Shown here one piece after another: positions 48,731-57,144 of a stretch of DNA of 64,000 nucleotides. The stretch's first letter is position 1. The number at the start of each line of letters is the position of its first letter. The stretch lies in NCBI RefSeq assembly GCF_000010985.1, contig NC_013939.1:372001-436000 (forward strand), in the 5' to 3' direction. The notes under the pieces were generated by a model. The model did not search any database. It saw only the letters and a program-made list of their open reading frames with translations, and had not been told where the DNA came from. Source of the DNA: Deferribacter desulfuricans SSM1. Its GTDB lineage: Bacteria; Chrysiogenota; Deferribacteres; Deferribacterales; Deferribacteraceae. The position numbers were made by a program, and so were the translations under genes.

Positions 48731-50668
48731 TTAATACCCCACAGCAGTCAAGATGAGATTTAGTATTATTCCGGTGAAAAATGCAAATGGTATAACAGTC
48801 AAAAATATAACCATAGCTGTTTTAAAACCTCTTTCTTTTATCATCATTGAAAACTGTGCAATACAGGGGACAAACAGAGTTAATATTACACTAGCAACAA
48901 TCAAATTTTTTACTGTTAATGTATTCTGAATATCGTACAATCCTGCAGCACCAAAATCCCTTCTAAAGAATCCGTAGATAAAAATATCTCCCATCTGTTT
49001 TGGGAGTCCTGCCATTTTTGCTGGAAATGAAAGTATAAAAGATAATACATCGAATAGTTTGGTAAGTTTTCCTATCCATATCAGAACTGATGCAAGTATA
49101 AAAAGTGGAATAACTTCAATTGCATACCATTTTAATCTTGAAAAAGTTTTTAGAAATACATTCTTAATACTTGGCATTCTAATTGGTGGAACTTCCATGA
49201 AAAAGCTGGCACTACCCCCTTTTGTATATTTATTTAAAATGAAGCCACTTATTAAGAAAACTACTAAGATAGTTATAAACCAAATTATAAGTGCTGAAAA
49301 ACTTTTATCAAAAAGTCCAAGAATTACACCCAGTTGAGCAGAGCATGGTATTGTCAAAGCAAGCAAAAATGTAACAAGCAATCTTTCCCTTTTTGTTTCA
49401 AGGGTTCTTGTTACAACTGTGGCCATTGTACCACAACCTAATCCTAAAATTAGAGGGATTACAGACCTCCCACTTAATCCAATCTTTTTCATTGATTTAT
49501 CAAGAATGATGGAGAGTCTTACTAAATAGCCTGAATCTTCTAATAAAGAAAACATAAAGAAAAAGGTTGAAACTACAGGTAAAACGATTGCGATTGCATA
49601 TCTTAAGCCTAAAGTTATAATTCCGTAGTCACCAGCAAAAAGATTGAAAAATATGGTATCTCCTAAAAACTTATGGAAAAGCTGATTTATGTAGGGGTTT
49701 AAACTTTCTTCAAAAATTTTTGTTTCTATGAAATCCACAAGAGTTCCAGCGCCAAATTGCCCAACAAACTTGTAAAATCCAAAATACAGAATCAATAAAA
49801 CAGCTAAAAAACCAAAAGTTGGGTGCAAGGTTATTTTATCAAAAAAGGAACTTATTTTTGACTGTTTTTTTGAGCCGTTTGAATAAAAATGTTCTGCACA
49901 GAGTTCTTGTGAAAGTTCTAATCTTTTTGAAGCTATTTCTATGTGGAGATTATCTGATAAACTATCAATTATTTCTTTTATTTTATCAAAGTTAGTTTCC
50001 CTTTCTTTTACAAACTGTATTGTATCTTTATCTTTTTGAATTAAAAGAAGAGCTATACTCCTCTTTGAGATTGGATAGCTACTATTTAATTGCTTAATTA
50101 TTTTTTCTATCAGTTGCTCTATATTATTGCTGTATTTAATGTTTATCGGCTGAAAATTATATCTTCCTTCAACTACACTCAAAATCCTAGCCATCAAATT
50201 TTCTGTCCCTTTGTTTTTAATAGCGGCAGTTTTAACTACAGGGATTCCAAGGTCATGCTCTAAATGGGTAATATTAATCTCCATCCCTTGGCATTCGAGC
50301 TCATCATACATATTTAATACAAGTATTGTGGGTAGACCCGCTTCGATAAATTGGAATGTAAGTGGAAGCATCCTTGCTATATTCTTTGCGTCTACAACAT
50401 GAAGAATACAATCATAATCATTTTGTAAGATAATATCCTTTGTGACTTTTTCTTCTTCAGTAATCGTGTTAAAATTGTAAAAACCTGGGGTATCTATAAA
50501 TTCCACCTCGTGGTGTGGACCGATGTTAGTTTTACCTTTAAATATTGAAACAGTTGTTCCAGGATAGTTTGATACAGAGGCATATTTTTTCGTTAGGTTA
50601 TAAAAAAGCGCACTTTTACCAACGTTTGGATTACCTACTAAAAGCACTTTATATTCTTTCTTATGCAT
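48731..50668 (-). CDS. feoB: Ferrous iron transporter FeoB
   Basis: A protein of about 645 residues. The N-terminal G domain has GNPNVGKSALF (P-loop), YPGTTVS, DTPGFYNF and LNMYDE. The middle is a GDI-like helical domain. The C-terminal membrane part has two Gate motifs: PLILGLGCGTMATVVTRTLETKRER (about 410-435) and FVPCIAQFSMMIKERGF near the end. It is somewhat shorter than E. coli FeoB (773), as in many anaerobes. I chose the ATG with GGAGGT 4-5 nt upstream; an upstream TTG would give four more residues. Imports Fe2+ across the inner membrane. Confidence 0.94.
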   Translation of the reverse strand: MHKKEYKVLLVGNPNVGKSALFYNLTKKYASVSNYPGTTVSIFKGKTNIGPHHEVEFIDTPGFYNFNTITEEEKVTKDIILQNDYDCILHVVDAKNIARMLPLTFQFIEAGLPTILVLNMYDELECQGMEINITHLEHDLGIPVVKTAAIKNKGTENLMARILSVVEGRYNFQPINIKYSNNIEQLIEKIIKQLNSSYPISKRSIALLLIQKDKDTIQFVKERETNFDKIKEIIDSLSDNLHIEIASKRLELSQELCAEHFYSNGSKKQSKISSFFDKITLHPTFGFLAVLLILYFGFYKFVGQFGAGTLVDFIETKIFEESLNPYINQLFHKFLGDTIFFNLFAGDYGIITLGLRYAIAIVLPVVSTFFFMFSLLEDSGYLVRLSIILDKSMKKIGLSGRSVIPLILGLGCGTMATVVTRTLETKRERLLVTFLLALTIPCSAQLGVILGLFDKSFSALIIWFITILVVFLISGFILNKYTKGGSASFFMEVPPIRMPSIKNVFLKTFSRLKWYAIEVIPLFILASVLIWIGKLTKLFDVLSFILSFPAKMAGLPKQMGDIFIYGFFRRDFGAAGLYDIQNTLTVKNLIVASVILTLFVPCIAQFSMMIKERGFKTAMVIFLTVIPFAFFTGIILNLILTAVGY

Positions 50669-50686
50669 TAATACCTCCAATAAGTG

Positions 50687-50721
50687 AAAAGTTAGATATA
50701 TCTAACTTTTGTATTTGTCAA
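50687..50721 (-). promoter_or_regulatory. feoB promoter with overlapping 24-bp palindrome
   Basis: On the minus strand TTGACA (50721-50716) and TATCTA (50698-50693) are 17 bp apart. A palindrome with arms AAAAGTTAGATA / TATCTAACTTTT (about 50687-50710) covers the -10 element. TTAG…CTAA-type palindromes are typical of DtxR/MntR/IdeR-family metalloregulators. A repressor bound there would block RNA polymerase. The regulator gene is not in the window. Confidence 0.65.
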
Positions 50722-50751
50722 GATTTTTTCTGATTTCTTTAATAAAAAAGC

Positions 50752-50780
50752 TTTACATTTTATTATTTTTAAATTATATG
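50752..50780 (+). promoter_or_regulatory. trp operon promoter
   Basis: TTTACA (50752-50757) and TATATG (50775-50780) are spaced by 17 bp. The expected transcription start (about 50787) falls at or next to the ATG of the leader peptide, for which I see no Shine-Dalgarno sequence, so the leader message may be leaderless. It is divergent from the feoB promoter, 30 bp away. Confidence 0.55.
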
Positions 50781-50787
50781 TACTTGC

Positions 50788-50859
50788 ATGAAGGGTTCAA
50801 TAATTTTTAACATTTTAAAATCATTAAGAAATTGGTGGTGGCAGTTGATAGCAATATAG
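50788..50859 (+). CDS. trpL: trp leader peptide (three tandem Trp codons)
   Basis: A 23-codon frame starting at ATG 50788 and ending at TAG 50857. It encodes MKGSIIFNILKSLRNWWWQLIAI in three parts: a short hydrophobic start, then Arg-Asn and three consecutive Trp codons (50833-50841), then five residues. It is placed exactly as in classical attenuators: the Trp codons cover RNA segment 1, and the stop lies between segments 1 and 2. Stalling at Trp codons when tryptophan is scarce would free segment 2. No Shine-Dalgarno sequence is evident. Confidence 0.88.
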   Translation: MKGSIIFNILKSLRNWWWQLIAI

Positions 50860-50924
50860 TGCTGTTCTGCCACCATTAAAATATATTTGGGCCGTGTGGC
50901 GGAACAGCCACACGGCCTTTTTTT
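50836..50924 (+). terminator. trp attenuator (1:2, 2:3 and 3:4 hairpins)
   Basis: Segment 1 TGGTGGCAG (50836-50844) pairs perfectly with CTGCCACCA in segment 2 (50867-50875). Segment 2 CTGTTCTGCCAC (50862-50873) pairs over 12 bp with segment 3 GTGGCGGAACAG (50896-50907), with one G-U pair. Segment 3 GGCCGTGTGGC (50890-50900) pairs with segment 4 GCCACACGGCC (50907-50917), an 11-bp GC-rich stem with a 6-nt loop and a run of 7 T. So 2:3 and 3:4 are mutually exclusive, as in E. coli. Confidence 0.92.
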
Positions 50925-50937
50925 ATAACTATTCGAA

Positions 50938-50969
50938 GGCCGTGGGATTTAACTCACGGCCTTTTTTTT
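50938..50969 (+). terminator. Second terminator directly before trpE
   Basis: GGCCGTGGG (50938-50946) / CTCACGGCC (50953-50961) with a 6-nt loop and eight T. It lies 6 bp before the trpE Shine-Dalgarno sequence. Its 5' arm GGCCGTG can also pair with CACGGCC of attenuator segment 4 (50911-50917), so it can be disarmed when segment 4 is free. Confidence 0.85.
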
Positions 50970-50988
50970 ATGAATTTGGAGGTTTAAA

Positions 50989-52461
50989 ATGTTAAATGTA
51001 AATTTTAAGGAATTTGAAAAATTATCAAAAGAATTTAGACAAATCCCTATAATACGAGAAATCGTGGGGGATATTTATACCCCTATTAGTTTGCTCAGAA
51101 ATTTTTCCAATGAAAAATTTCTATTTTTGCTTGAAAGTGCAAATATTGATAAGAGTTTTTCAAGGTTTACCTATTTTGCAAAGACTGCGAAGAAGACACT
51201 AATTTTCAAAAAAGGGAAACTTTATTTAATTGATAAAGATGGGAAGAAAACAGAACTACTTGTAAATCCTATTGATTATTTAAACAGTGAAATGAACGAG
51301 TTTAAAGGTGCAAAATTTGAAAGTATTGGTGATTTTTGTGGTGGATATGTGGGCTTTTTTGGTTATGAAATGGCAAATTATATGGGGATTTTAAGAGAGA
51401 AATTGTATGAAGGTGATGAATCTCAACTTGGACTTGGATACATTGATGAGTTTTATGTTTTTGATAACAAGTTAGGTAAATTTTATTCGGTTTGCATTGC
51501 AGATACCTCAAATTCTTTAGAGGATGAGTTTAGAAGATGTGTAAAAAGAACCCTTGAGATGGTAGATGAGTTACATGTTGTTAATTTTGACCTCACGAAA
51601 TCTGACAGTTTTATAAATATTAAAAAAGATTTTGAAAAAGATGATTTTATTGAAACTGTAAAAAAGGTTAAAGATGAAATAATTAGAGGCGAAGCAATTC
51701 AAATTGTCATTTCCAATAAATTTGAAGTGGATGGATTTGTAAACCCTGTGAGTTTCTATAGAGCGTTAAGAAATATTAATCCATCCCCTTATATGTTTTA
51801 TTTTAAATTTGATGATTTTATTGTGTGTGGTTCATCCCCTGAAATTCATTTAAAAATCAAGGATAATAAAGCCACTTTAAAACCTATTGCCGGCACATAC
51901 CCAGTAGAAAAAGATATCGAGGATGTGAAAAGAAAATTAATATCTGATGAAAAGGAGATTTCTGAGCATTTAATGCTTTTAGACCTTGCAAGAAATGACC
52001 TTTATAGAGGGTGTAAACCTAAAACGGTAAAAGTCAATGAGGCGTTTGTTCCGGAAGTTTATTCACATGTAGTGCATATTGTGTCGGAGGTGGAGGGGGA
52101 AAAAAAAGAGGGCATTTCAAATTTAGATTTATTTGCAATGACATTTCCTGCAGGGACTGTTTCAGGTGCTCCAAAGGTGAGAGCTATGGAGTTGATAAAT
52201 CAGTATGAAAAAAGTCCTCGAGGTTTTTATGCAGGATGTGCTGGTTATTTCTCTTTTGCAGGGGATATGGATACATGTATCACAATTAGAAGCGCCGCTT
52301 TTAAAAATGGGAAAATGATTTTAAGAGCAGGAGCAGGTATTGTCTATGACAGCGATCCTGAAAGGGAATATTTTGAAGTGGAAAATAAGCTGGGAGCTCT
52401 TTTTAAAGCAATTGAGGTAACTAAGAATATGGAGGAAAGGTATGTTTTTACTGATAGATAA
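50989..52461 (+). CDS. trpE: Anthranilate synthase component I TrpE
   Basis: A 490-residue chorismate-using enzyme. LLES (FLFLLESANID, near residue 47) belongs to the Trp feedback site. Catalytic-domain landmarks: IQIVISNKFEV, NPSPYMFYFKF, SSPEIHLKI, PIAGTYPVEKD, LMLLDLARNDLYRG, TFPAGTVSGAPKVRAMELI and RAGAGIVYDSDPEREYFE. TTTGGAGG lies 7-8 nt before the ATG. First gene of the complete trp operon; overlaps trpG by 20 bp. Expression is set by the attenuator upstream. Confidence 0.97.
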   Translation: MLNVNFKEFEKLSKEFRQIPIIREIVGDIYTPISLLRNFSNEKFLFLLESANIDKSFSRFTYFAKTAKKTLIFKKGKLYLIDKDGKKTELLVNPIDYLNSEMNEFKGAKFESIGDFCGGYVGFFGYEMANYMGILREKLYEGDESQLGLGYIDEFYVFDNKLGKFYSVCIADTSNSLEDEFRRCVKRTLEMVDELHVVNFDLTKSDSFINIKKDFEKDDFIETVKKVKDEIIRGEAIQIVISNKFEVDGFVNPVSFYRALRNINPSPYMFYFKFDDFIVCGSSPEIHLKIKDNKATLKPIAGTYPVEKDIEDVKRKLISDEKEISEHLMLLDLARNDLYRGCKPKTVKVNEAFVPEVYSHVVHIVSEVEGEKKEGISNLDLFAMTFPAGTVSGAPKVRAMELINQYEKSPRGFYAGCAGYFSFAGDMDTCITIRSAAFKNGKMILRAGAGIVYDSDPEREYFEVENKLGALFKAIEVTKNMEERYVFTDR

Positions 52462-53005
52462 TTACGACTCATTTACTTACAACCTATACGCACTTTTTGA
52501 TAATGCTGGTGTGGATGTTGATATAATTAAAAATGATGAGTTTGTGGATGCATCAAAATATCATGGGTTAATAATTTCTCCGGGGCCTTCAAATCCGGAA
52601 AACTCAGGTAATTCTTTAAAATATATTGAAGAATATAAAGGGAAACTCCCCATTTTTGGTGTTTGCCTTGGGATGCAATGTATAGCCTATTACAAAACAG
52701 GGACTTACAGACAGGCTAAGAGCATTAAACATGGCAAAATAGACAAAATTATCAAATCAAAAGATTCATTAATTTTAGAAGGGTTGCCTAACAAGTTTGA
52801 AGCTGTTCGTTATCACTCTCTGGCAGTCAATGTAGCTGAAGAGTTTGTTGTTGCAAGAGGGGAGAGTGATGGTGAAATTATGGCTATTGAATTTAGAGAT
52901 GAATTGCTCTTTGGTGTTCAATTTCATCCAGAATCGATAAAAAGTGAATATGGGGACAAAATCGTTCAAAATTTTATAAAAATTTGTGGAGGGTGTCATG
53001 TATGA
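52442..53005 (+). CDS. trpG: Anthranilate synthase component II TrpG (glutamine amidotransferase)
   Basis: A 187-residue class I glutamine amidotransferase. LIDNYDSFTYNL opens the protein. The nucleophile is C75 in GVCLGMQCIAYY, and the His-Glu pair is in VQFHPESI near the end. It supplies ammonia to TrpE. It stands alone, not fused to TrpD as in E. coli. Overlaps trpE by 20 bp and trpD by 8 bp. A pabA-like dual role is possible if no other pabA exists. Confidence 0.95.
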   Translation: MFLLIDNYDSFTYNLYALFDNAGVDVDIIKNDEFVDASKYHGLIISPGPSNPENSGNSLKYIEEYKGKLPIFGVCLGMQCIAYYKTGTYRQAKSIKHGKIDKIIKSKDSLILEGLPNKFEAVRYHSLAVNVAEEFVVARGESDGEIMAIEFRDELLFGVQFHPESIKSEYGDKIVQNFIKICGGCHV

Positions 53006-53990
53006 TGCTGTAAAAAAACTTTTTAATGGAAAAGATATGAGTTTAGCTGAGTCTTTAAAAGTTTTCGAGGGGATAATGAAAGGTGAGTTTGATGATGATA
53101 TAGTCAGTGCTGTTTTAATTGCTCTAAAAATGAAAGGGGAAACTGCAACAGAGATATACGTTGCAGCAAAAGTTCTTAATGACCTTAAGTTTAGATTTGA
53201 ACACTCTAAAAGGCCATGTATTGATACTTGTGGTACTGGTGGTGATGGTAAAAGCTGCGTCAATGTATCTACTGCTGTGTCTATTATTTTGTCGTCTCTT
53301 GGTCATAATGTGGTTAAACATGGTAATGTTGCTATAAGTGGAAAAGTGGGATCTGCTGATATTTTGGATATGTTAGGTATTCCTGTTAAGTTATCAGTTG
53401 ATGAAATGCGTGAATTTTATGAAAGAAATGGTTTTGTGTTTTTGCTTGCACCGATGTTTCATCCTGCGATGAAAAATGTGGCTCAGATCAGAAAAAAACT
53501 TGGTGTTCCTACTATCTTCAATCTTTTGGGGCCGCTGGTAAACCCTGCTGATCCAGAATATCAAATCATTGGGGTAGGTAGTAAAGATAAACTCGAGGTT
53601 TACGCAGAAGCTGCTAGTAAATTTAAAAATAAAAAGTTTATAGTTTATTCGTCCTTAGATGGATATGATGAGGTTTCAACAAAAGAGCCAACAAGGTGCT
53701 ATAAGATTATTGATGGGCAAATATCAGAATTTGTATTAAAGCCTGAAGATTTCTTTGAACCTTTTGATATGCCTTCTGTTTCATCAAAAGAAGAGGCTAA
53801 AAGACTGTTTTTAGAGGGCATTATTGGAGAAAATGAAAAAATTTCCATACTTTTTGCAATCAATACTGCACTTGCTTTGCATTTAATTGATAATAGTTCA
53901 ATTGATGACGGTTTTGAAAAAGTGCTGCAACATCTGAAATCAGGCAAAGTAATTGAAAAATTAGAAAGTTTAAAAGGGGTAAGTGCTTAA
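52998..53990 (+). CDS. trpD: Anthranilate phosphoribosyltransferase TrpD
   Basis: A 330-residue enzyme joining PRPP and anthranilate. The PRPP site CGTGGDGKSCVNVSTA, KHGNVAISGKVGSADILDMLGI and FLLAPMFHPAMKNVAQIRKKLGVPTIFNLLGPLVNPA are typical. The ATG at 52998 has GGAGGG 5 nt upstream, which is why I prefer it to the upstream TTG frame start. Overlaps trpG and touches trpC. Confidence 0.96.
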   Translation: MYDAVKKLFNGKDMSLAESLKVFEGIMKGEFDDDIVSAVLIALKMKGETATEIYVAAKVLNDLKFRFEHSKRPCIDTCGTGGDGKSCVNVSTAVSIILSSLGHNVVKHGNVAISGKVGSADILDMLGIPVKLSVDEMREFYERNGFVFLLAPMFHPAMKNVAQIRKKLGVPTIFNLLGPLVNPADPEYQIIGVGSKDKLEVYAEAASKFKNKKFIVYSSLDGYDEVSTKEPTRCYKIIDGQISEFVLKPEDFFEPFDMPSVSSKEEAKRLFLEGIIGENEKISILFAINTALALHLIDNSSIDDGFEKVLQHLKSGKVIEKLESLKGVSA

Positions 53991-54727
53991 TGTTTTTAGA
54001 AGAGGTTTATCTGAAAAAAATTGAAGAGGTTAAAGGTCTAAAAGTAGAAGGTGTTAGAAATAAAAGGATTATACCTTTTGGTATTAACCTTCCAGAGAAG
54101 AGGGTTATAGCTGAAGTTAAGCAGGCTTCTCCATCTTTAGGCCTTATAAAAAATGTAGATGTTTGTTTACAGGCAAAAAGATATGAAAAAGGTGGTGCAG
54201 CAGCTATAAGTGTTCTTACTGATAAATATTACTTTAATGGAAGTTTTGAATTTTTAAACAGAATTAGCAAGGAAGTGAGCCTTCCCATATTGTGTAAAGA
54301 TTTTATCATCGATAAAAAACAGGTGGATATGGCCTATATGAATGGTGCTGATGTTATCCTTTTGATAGTTAGTCTTCTTGATGATAAATCGTTGTTTAAT
54401 CTTTATGAATACGCAAAAAGCCTTGGATTAGAAGTATTAGTGGAAATTCATGAATTTGAAGAATTTAAGAGAGTTGAAAATATGGGTATTAAATTTTTAG
54501 GGGTAAATAGCAGAAATTTGAAAACTTTAAAAATTGATAAAAGCTATGCCTTAAATGTGTTAAAAAATATAGATGGTGAATTTGTAAAGGTAGCTGAAAG
54601 TGGAATTGAGACTATTGATGATGTAATGATGTTTAGAAATGTAGGAGCTGAGATGTTTTTAATAGGGACTACCCTTATGAAGTCAGAAAGTCCTGAAGAA
54701 TTGATCAGGAAATTTAATCAGGTGTAA
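53990..54727 (+). CDS. trpC: Indole-3-glycerol-phosphate synthase TrpC
   Basis: A 245-residue TIM barrel. Family landmarks: VIAEVKQASPSLGLI, AISVLTDKYYFNGSFEFL, LPILCKDFIIDKKQVDMAYMNGADVILLI, EVLVEIHEFEEF, LGVNSRNLKTL and KVAESGIE. Single-domain form, with TrpF separate. The start overlaps the trpD stop (TAATG). Confidence 0.96.
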   Translation: MFLEEVYLKKIEEVKGLKVEGVRNKRIIPFGINLPEKRVIAEVKQASPSLGLIKNVDVCLQAKRYEKGGAAAISVLTDKYYFNGSFEFLNRISKEVSLPILCKDFIIDKKQVDMAYMNGADVILLIVSLLDDKSLFNLYEYAKSLGLEVLVEIHEFEEFKRVENMGIKFLGVNSRNLKTLKIDKSYALNVLKNIDGEFVKVAESGIETIDDVMMFRNVGAEMFLIGTTLMKSESPEELIRKFNQV

Positions 54728-54728
54728 T

Positions 54729-55271
54729 ATGTTTATCAAAGTATGTGGGATAACCACTTTTGAGCAGATAGAATGGGCTATTGAGCTTGGATACAGTGCA
54801 GTAGGTATAGTTTTTCACCCTAAGAGTAAAAGGTATGTGGGCTATACAAAAGGTATCAAACTTGCAGATTATGCAAAAAATAAAATTTTAACAGTGTGTG
54901 TTGGTATAGATTTTGATGAAGTAAAAGATGTGTATGATAATTTTGATTATGTACAGCTTTATAACTATAGAGAGCTTGATAATCTAATTTATGGGACTGC
55001 TGATAAACCAGATAACGAAAAGTTTAAATATCTTATTTTTGATAGAAGTATGGGGAAAGGGGTTTTTGAATGTGATTATCCTGAATGGGTTTACGACTAT
55101 ACAGATAGATTGCTAGTATCTGGTGGTTTGACACCTGAAAATGTGGGTAACGTTTTTGAAAAGATTATACCAGCTGGTGTTGATGTATCAAGTGGTGTGG
55201 AAGTGGATTATGGTGTGAAAAGTTTTGAAAAGATGAAGTTATTTATAGAGAAAATTAAACAACATATCTGA
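54729..55271 (+). CDS. trpF: Phosphoribosylanthranilate isomerase TrpF
   Basis: A 180-residue TIM barrel, slightly shorter than usual (about 200). The catalytic Cys is in [14 protein letters not shown] (C6), with [12 protein letters not shown] and the phosphate loops [12 protein letters not shown] and [20 protein letters not shown]. The shortening is in the middle of the barrel (between [10 protein letters not shown] and YLIFDRSMG), but the active-site motifs are kept. One bp after trpC. Confidence 0.93.
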
Positions 55272-55279
55272 GGTGTTTT

Positions 55280-56455
55280 ATGAATTATAATAGATATTTT
55301 TATGGGGAGTATGGTGGCCAATTTGTAGCGGAAACTCTTATACCGCTCCTCGATGAACTTGAAGAAAATTTTATTAAATACAAAGATAATAAAAATTTTA
55401 ATGATGAATTAGATTATTTGTTAAAAAATTATGCAGGCAGACCAACACCTGTTTATTTTGCAAAGAGATTATCTGAAAAGTATGGAGTTAATATTTATCT
55501 AAAAAGGGAAGATTTACTTCATACAGGAGCTCATAAAATAAATAACACTTTAGGGCAGGCGTTGCTTGCAAAATACATGGGGAAAAAGCGTATTATTGCT
55601 GAGACAGGAGCTGGACAGCATGGAGTTGCCACTGCAACAGTTTGTGCTTTACTTGGGATTGAATGTACAGTGTATATGGGGAGTCTTGATGCTAAAAGAC
55701 AGAGAATAAATGTAGAGCGGATGAAGATGCTTGGTGCAAAAGTGGAAGTGGTAGATTTTGGTAGTCAAACTTTGAAAGATGCTGTAAGTGCAGCAATAAA
55801 AGATTGGGTAACCAATGTTGATACTACTCATTATCTCATTGGCTCTGCAGTTGGGCCATACCCTTTTCCAGAAATCGTGGCACATTTTCAGTCAGTAATT
55901 GGATTAGAAGCAAGAAAGTTTTTCATTGAAGAGGTTGGTAAATTGCCTGATGTTGTTGTTGCCTGTGTTGGCGGAGGAAGTAATGCGATAGGTATTTTTA
56001 GAGGTTTTTTAGAGGATGAAGATGTAAGATTGATTGGTGTAGAAGCGGGTGGTTTATCAGAAAAGGTTGGGGAGCACGCAAGTAGTATCTCTTATGGCAA
56101 AAAAGGGGTTTTTCAGGGGAGTCTTTCAAAGGTATTGCAAACAGAATTTGGGCAGATTGCAAGTGTCCATTCTGTATCTGCTGGACTTGATTATCCAGGC
56201 GTTGGGCCTGAGCATGCCTATCTATTTGATATAGGTAGAGCAGAATATTATCCAATAAATGATAAAGAAGCAGTAGATGGTTTCTTTGAACTTACAAGGT
56301 TAGAAGGGATTTTACCAGCTTTAGAATCTAGTCATGCAATAGGGTATGTGATGAAGCATCATAAAGAGTTTATTGGTAAAAATGTGTTAATCAATTTGTC
56401 GGGGAGAGGGGATAAGGATTTGCATATTATAGAAGATTATGTGAGGGGAATATGA
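55280..56455 (+). CDS. trpB: Tryptophan synthase beta subunit TrpB
   Basis: A 391-residue PLP enzyme. The PLP lysine is K86 in [17 protein letters not shown]; the phosphate loop is [10 protein letters not shown], and E-T-G-A-G-Q-H-G binds the substrate carboxylate. The motif [17 protein letters not shown] is canonical for TrpB1 (not TrpB2). It condenses indole with serine and forms the alpha2-beta2 complex with TrpA. Overlaps trpA by 4 bp. Confidence 0.97.
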
Positions 56456-57144
56456 AAGGTGTTTATATTGTTCTAAGCTATCCAGATAAAGAAACATTTC
56501 TTGAAGTAATAAATTTTATATCGAACTATGACGGTATAGATTTTATAGAGATAGGTTACCCTTTTAATGATCCAGTTGCTGATGGGCCGGTTATAATGGA
56601 TGCAATCAATCAGGTTTATGATAAAGTTACTTTTGAAGATTTAAAAGAGGTATTGAGGATAATAAATAAAAGAAAAAAAGTATATGTAATGACATATTCA
56701 AATATTGTTTATAGCTATGGATTAAAACAGTTTTCTGATGATTTTGGTTTTTTACTAGATGGTCTTATAATTGCCGATTTGCCAAATAGGATGCATGACT
56801 TTTTTTATCAAAAAGGTTTATCTGTAGAGATTATTCCCTTTTTAACACCAACGAGTAGAAAGGAAGATATTTTATCAATTAACAATTTGAAAGGTGATTT
56901 TGTATACTATGTTGGGACAAAGGGGACAACTGGGGTTATGGGTGACTTAAATTTTAATGAAAATAAGATTAGTGATATAAAAAAGTTGGTGAATAAAAAA
57001 GTAGTTTACGGATTTGGCATTAAGACAAGAGATGATATATATGATATTTTAAAATTTTCTGACGGTGTAGTGGTAGGAACAGAAATAGTAAAAAGACAAA
57101 AAGATTTTGAAAAATTCAAGAGTTTTATCAAAAATACGTTTTGA
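56452..57144 (+). CDS. trpA: Tryptophan synthase alpha subunit TrpA (short N-terminus)
   Basis: A 230-residue TIM barrel. Both catalytic acids are present: E33 in [17 protein letters not shown] and D44 in the same motif (E49 and D60 in E. coli). [14 protein letters not shown] and [12 protein letters not shown] form the phosphate site. The protein is about 30-35 residues shorter than usual; about 16 are missing at the N-terminus, where helix 0 normally closes the barrel, and loops are trimmed. The start overlaps trpB, so the short start looks real. It probably depends on TrpB for stability. Confidence 0.93.

Follow-up and report, generated by a model that had tools for sequence, protein, structure and literature searches.

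The trp leader in the window, the 64,000-nucleotide stretch of Deferribacter desulfuricans SSM1 DNA to which all coordinates refer, is best read as a tryptophan attenuator in which two intrinsic terminators stand in series and one ribosome decision controls both through a hairpin relay (probability about 0.78). At low tryptophan, a ribosome stalled on the Trp codons would mask segment 1, and segments 2 and 3 would pair (2:3) ahead of the synthesis of segment 4, barring the first terminator (T1, 3:4). The free segment 4 would then grab the emerging segment 5 in a 9-bp helix (4:5) before segment 6 exists, which would pre-empt the second terminator (T2, 5:6) and let RNA polymerase reach trpE. At high tryptophan, or with no translation, segment 2 would be covered or paired with segment 1, and 3:4 would form and terminate transcription. 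For any polymerase escaping T1, segment 4 would be locked in 3:4, leaving 5:6 to form and the second terminator to act. The anatomy, conservation, covariation and predicted folding are documented below; that both sites terminate transcription, that the outcome depends on Trp-tRNA and that the off state is tighter are inferred.

Organization of the trp leader and operon

A promoter-like sequence is predicted on the plus strand at 50752-50780, with a -35 element TTTACA (50752-50757) and a -10 element TATATG (50775-50780) separated by a 17-nt spacer; promoter spacing of this kind recurs in nearly all of the 22 leaders examined. The predicted transcript start falls on the ATG of the leader ORF or 1 nt before it, which would make translation of the leader peptide leaderless. 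On the minus strand, divergent from the trp leader, lies a FeoB-like iron transporter gene (48731-50680) recognized by eye.

The leader peptide ORF (50788-50859, plus strand, as are all leader and operon features below) encodes MKGSIIFNILKSLRNWWWQLIAI followed by a stop codon, and the WWW leader is kept in relatives. Its three Trp codons (50833-50841), the putative ribosome stall site, lie within segment 1; as in ribosome-mediated Trp attenuators, trp genes are thus preceded by a short ORF in which Trp codons stand in a row. Folding places segment 1 at 50832-50853, with segment 2 (50860-50879) as its partner if no ribosome is present, and positions 50861-50874 of segment 2 pair with 50894-50908 in the predicted 2:3 antiterminator. 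Segment 3, the 5′ arm of T1, was located at 50890-50900 by the terminator scan and by 3:4 covariation, and segment 4 (50907-50917) together with the U run of T1 extends over 50907-50924 (terminator scan). Both prediction and covariation indicate that the 2:3 antiterminator and the 3:4 terminator are mutually exclusive.

Terminator T1 (50890-50924; terminator-scan site at 50889-50918) has a run of U7 behind its hairpin in the window, and T2 (50938-50969; terminator-scan site at 50935-50964) lies 20 nt 3′ of T1. The interval first noted, 50907-50969, thus reaches from segment 4 to the last U of the T2 run. Segment 5 (50936-50946) contains AAGGCCGTG (50936-50944), which pairs with segment 4, and GGCCGTGGG (50938-50946), the 5′ arm of T2; segment 6 (50953-50961) and the U run of T2 occupy 50953-50969 according to the terminator scan. 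The region 50600-51050 holds exactly two terminator-like sites, T1 and T2, for which shuffles predict 0.1. The two terminators, each with its U run, lie where the original prediction had put them, with T2 ahead of the trpE ribosome-binding site (GGAGG, 50978-50982), which is outside both. The trpE gene (50989-52461, ATG at 50989; TIGR00564 match in this genome, E 4e-128) is the first of trpE-G-D-C-F-B-A (50989-57144), in which the genes after trpE were assigned by reading their sequences.

Complementarity of segments 4 and 5 in the window

The pairing on which the relay depends had been proposed from the complementarity between GGCCGTG of segment 5 and CACGGCC of segment 4, and these motifs indeed occupy 50938-50944 and 50911-50917. 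The helix is longer than first noted, because AA (50936-50937) and UU (50918-50919) extend it to 9 bp. Its segment 4 side, CACGGCCTT (50911-50919), takes in a portion of segment 4 plus its tail, was delimited by covariation and pairs with 50936-50944. This pairing excludes both 3:4 and 5:6.

The likelihood of such a match by chance was estimated in a 464-kb sample of the same genome, in which 114 terminator-like sites were found. Random pairs of terminators from this sample gave a 4:5-type run of at least 7 in 4% of draws. We also considered whether 4:5 could stem from a terminator motif common in the genome, and this was ruled out, as the GGCCGTG arm is confined to T1 and T2 among the 114 sites. 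By itself, a 7-bp match would be only mildly unlikely, and it is conservation and covariation, judged from sequence comparison, that lift 4:5 above chance. A single-protein query scan of the genome contigs returned one remote match.

Conservation and covariation in the class

A TrpE search across 48 genomes of the class, combined with reading of the upstream regions, yielded 23 leaders from 9 genera. All 23 have a WWW leader, the 3:4 hairpin and a second terminator, and complementarity between segments 4 and 5 was seen in 20, which represent 8 genera and 6 families. A lack of covariation between segments 4 and 5 had been set beforehand as grounds for refuting the relay; covariation was present, and the relay claim withstood the test. 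With registers set by hand for 4:5, 3:4 and 5:6, the 17 distinct rows showed 98% of 4:5 cells paired and two-sided changes at 6 of 9 positions, which was found in 0 of 500 shuffles; sliding the 4:5 register reduced paired cells to 18-53%. The 3:4 and 5:6 helices showed covariation behaviour like that of 4:5 in the same 17 rows. When the entire leaders were aligned with MAFFT instead of by hand, 4:5 had 96% paired cells and again two-sided changes at 6/9 positions.

Exchanging segment 5 between genera, also in the hand-set registers, weakened 4:5. Within the order, the natural pairing was equalled in 2 of 40,320 permutations, and when the exceptional genus was included, 8 of 362,880 permutations were as good. 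Segment swaps over 16 groups produced no match to the natural pairings in 200,000 permutations.

A plain backup terminator, that is, a T2 that arose as a duplicate of T1 and cuts leak-through, with 4:5 as a by-product without function, is the strongest rival of the relay, and we consider it unlikely. GGCCGTG is common to segments 3 and 5 and CACGGCC to segments 4 and 6, and since segment 3 thus resembles 5 and segment 4 resembles 6, duplication alone would give some 4:5 complementarity. Against this, changes in segment 4 are tracked by segment 5 but not by segment 6 in L002, L014 and g16. Compared with L001 of the same genus, leader L002 has U changed to C adjoining segment 4 and A changed to G in segment 5, and its segment 6 keeps U; a compensation of the same kind distinguishes L014 from L005 and L015 in another genus. 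In L016 and L018 both strands of 4:5 have changed together and remain Watson-Crick paired (CACAGCC:GGCTGTG), whereas 5:6 carries a G.U there. Segment 5 likewise tracks segment 4 where segment 3 does not in L014 and L015, in which it meets segment 4 by an A-U pair and segment 3 has a G.U. The co-specificity found in the permutations is not expected of a backup either, and a plain second terminator would block expression at low tryptophan too.

Leader variants

The U run of T1 is broken in L005, L014 and L015, which have kept 4:5 and T2. T2 cannot be a backup in these leaders; it would be the site of termination, with 4:5 exerting the control. The genus g6 (L006, L007, L009) speaks for the backup, as it retains T2 without 4:5: its T2 is long and different, and its 4:5 is weak, at -9 to -13 kcal/mol compared with -20 to -24 kcal/mol for 5:6, so a T2 is able to occur where there is no relay. 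Repeat-like sequence of about 300 nt separates the second terminator from trpE in L006 and L007. An insertion of ~120 nt rich in inverted repeats lies between T2 and trpE in L019 and L022 and is absent from sister genomes.

The different T2 stem of genus g6 could also be taken to mean that T2 answers a separate signal (a protein, a ligand or another ORF) and that 4:5 is incidental, and tandem attenuators with their own signals do exist, as in mgtCBR (PMC3641672). We regard this as very improbable. The linker between segments 4 and 5 measures 38 nt in L008 and 15-25 nt in the other 19 of the 20 leaders, leaving little room for a separate sensor, no Rfam family reached the gathering score, and the 4:5 covariation would be left without explanation. 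The Rfam comparison of the window region produced no family at the gathering threshold, the best being Ref1C with 39.3 bits against a threshold of 90, and none was obtained at the gathering score for eight dual or his-like leaders.

Leader L028, from another class of the phylum, has a W-R-W-W leader peptide and a 3:4 hairpin that lacks a U run, and its only terminator is reached via 4:5. Its 4:5, identified by eye, has 9 bp (CCACGATCG:CGGTCGTGG) with one G.U, and this layout resembles the his type proper, here serving trp.

Predicted folding in the two ribosome states

The proposed switch was also evaluated by folding the leaders under both ribosome states. As the relay predicts, the models favour 2:3 and 4:5 with a stalled ribosome, and 3:4 followed by 5:6 with the ribosome at the stop codon. 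At the point where segment 5 is complete, 14 of 17 leaders have 2:3+4:5 as their MFE structure in the stalled state, and the MFE structure includes 3:4 when the ribosome is at the stop codon. Once segment 6 is made, 3:4+5:6 has the lowest energy in all 17 leaders. Because this is the equilibrium state, the relay must be kinetic, as in classical attenuators.

Kinetics were approached by a step-wise co-transcriptional walk with a barrier limit, a coarse model with uneven performance. As calibration, the walk kept the E. coli trp 2:3 antiterminator at a limit of 6 kcal/mol and lost it at 7 kcal/mol, and on E. coli his it reached a state like B:C + D:E, for which a stall at His 5-6 was required. 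At a limit of 6 kcal/mol, 4:5 was held to the end in 12 of 17 leaders, the window leader among them, and masking of segment 4 led to formation of 5:6 in 14 of 17. In the window leader, 4:5 gave way to 5:6 at a limit of 6.5, and with segment 4 masked 5:6 formed at 6.5 only among the limits tried. When the walk was run with a stop-codon ribosome, T1 formed in 12/17 leaders at limit 6; the window leader formed T1 at limit 6 and T2 only at limit 10.

That 4:5 mainly protects 2:3, by sequestering segment 4 against a late invasion by 3:4 and with a secondary effect on T2, is the least probable of the alternatives: 2:3 and 4:5 do co-occur in the stalled-state MFE and 3:4 is a more stable alternative to 2:3, but T1 is already passed when segment 5 is made, such protection would matter only if T2 depends on 2:3, and it is compatible with the relay in any case.

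The relay logic of the original prediction, in which 2:3 frees segment 4 to capture segment 5 and 3:4 is otherwise followed by 5:6, is thus favoured by covariation, segment swaps, compensations and modelled kinetic folding. We conclude that the window leader represents a real, conserved variant and that the proposed mechanism is likely.

Comparison with known attenuators

The leader peptide ORF with Trp codons, the 1:2 pairing, the 2:3 antiterminator and the 3:4 terminator are shared with E. coli trpL, which is without segments 5 and 6 and is accompanied by TrpR, whereas the window leader has both additional segments. The his attenuator, in which segments C and D can pair, offers the closest topology. 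It consists of six segments, and B:C with D:E stands against A:B and E:F, so that the relay started by a stalled ribosome pre-empts a later terminator (PMC4046918). The window leader is like that of E. coli and Salmonella his in having a six-segment relay, with 4:5 corresponding to D:E and exclusive with the last terminator. It differs in that his has one terminator (E:F), whereas here two terminators lie in series and the leader codes for Trp. The middle hairpin of the his type is not a terminator, whereas 3:4 carries U7 in the window and a U run in most members, so the window leader is a variant and does not belong to the his type in the strict sense; L028, and in part L005, L014 and L015, look like the single-terminator form of his.

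The trpL transcript of Sinorhizobium meliloti starts at the ATG, as predicted here, and its operon is without transcriptional repression, but a single attenuator terminator is depicted for it and two are present here (PMC7298713). Two tandem terminators with an antiterminator also occur in the rimP-leader of Gammaproteobacteria, which serves another gene and signal and whose description, in the part consulted, mentions no ribosome relay (PMC2965389). The mgtCBR leader likewise has more than one attenuating element, but there separate signals act independently and without intrinsic terminators (PMC3641672). In the open-access literature, we found no description of this layout for trp genes or of trp leaders in Deferribacteres. 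Any novelty of the layout would lie in its use in trp attenuators; the relay topology itself is known from his (PMC4046918).

Wider distribution and significance

A covariance model built from 20 leaders was run against 385 genomes and, outside the phylum, gave hits ahead of trpE-like genes in L073, L078, L079, L080 (in which the match does not extend to the leader ORF) and L082. L083 (G147) has a WWW leader and one visible terminator ahead of a trpE-like gene. Among 100 regions upstream of trpE sampled without bias from other lineages, 13 had a WW leader and a terminator according to a simple filter, some of them perhaps chance ORFs, and two of the 13 (L151, L169) had tandem terminators. In all seven leaders outside the phylum, five of which were found by a model favouring similar arm sequences and so give no prevalence estimate, 4:5 has 9-12 pairs, and these leaders prefer their own partner (397 of 200,000 permutations); none of the seven matches an Rfam family.

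With somewhat better than even confidence, we propose that dual-terminator relay trp attenuators form a recurrent class, which occurs in six or more families of the order as well as in several lineages beyond the phylum. In this class, a single ribosome decision would set both serial terminators and possibly replace a repressor in providing a tight off state. No TrpR match exceeded the cut-off in the 48 genomes of the class, in which two weak matches were seen, and attenuation would therefore carry more of the control. In the argument of Elf and Ehrenberg, basal readthrough is reduced by the additional hairpin of his, and trp can afford leakage thanks to TrpR; a second terminator under the same decision would fit this reasoning (PMC1183508).

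Two textbook designs come together in these leaders, with the terminator switch taken from trp and the relay from his. If they work as proposed, leak would be multiplied over two terminators while induction would take one ribosome stall, giving a wide control range without a repressor. This predicts that lack of TrpR and the presence of additional hairpins are linked, in the way that has been modelled for his (PMC1183508), and such leaders would provide a natural part for synthetic regulation.
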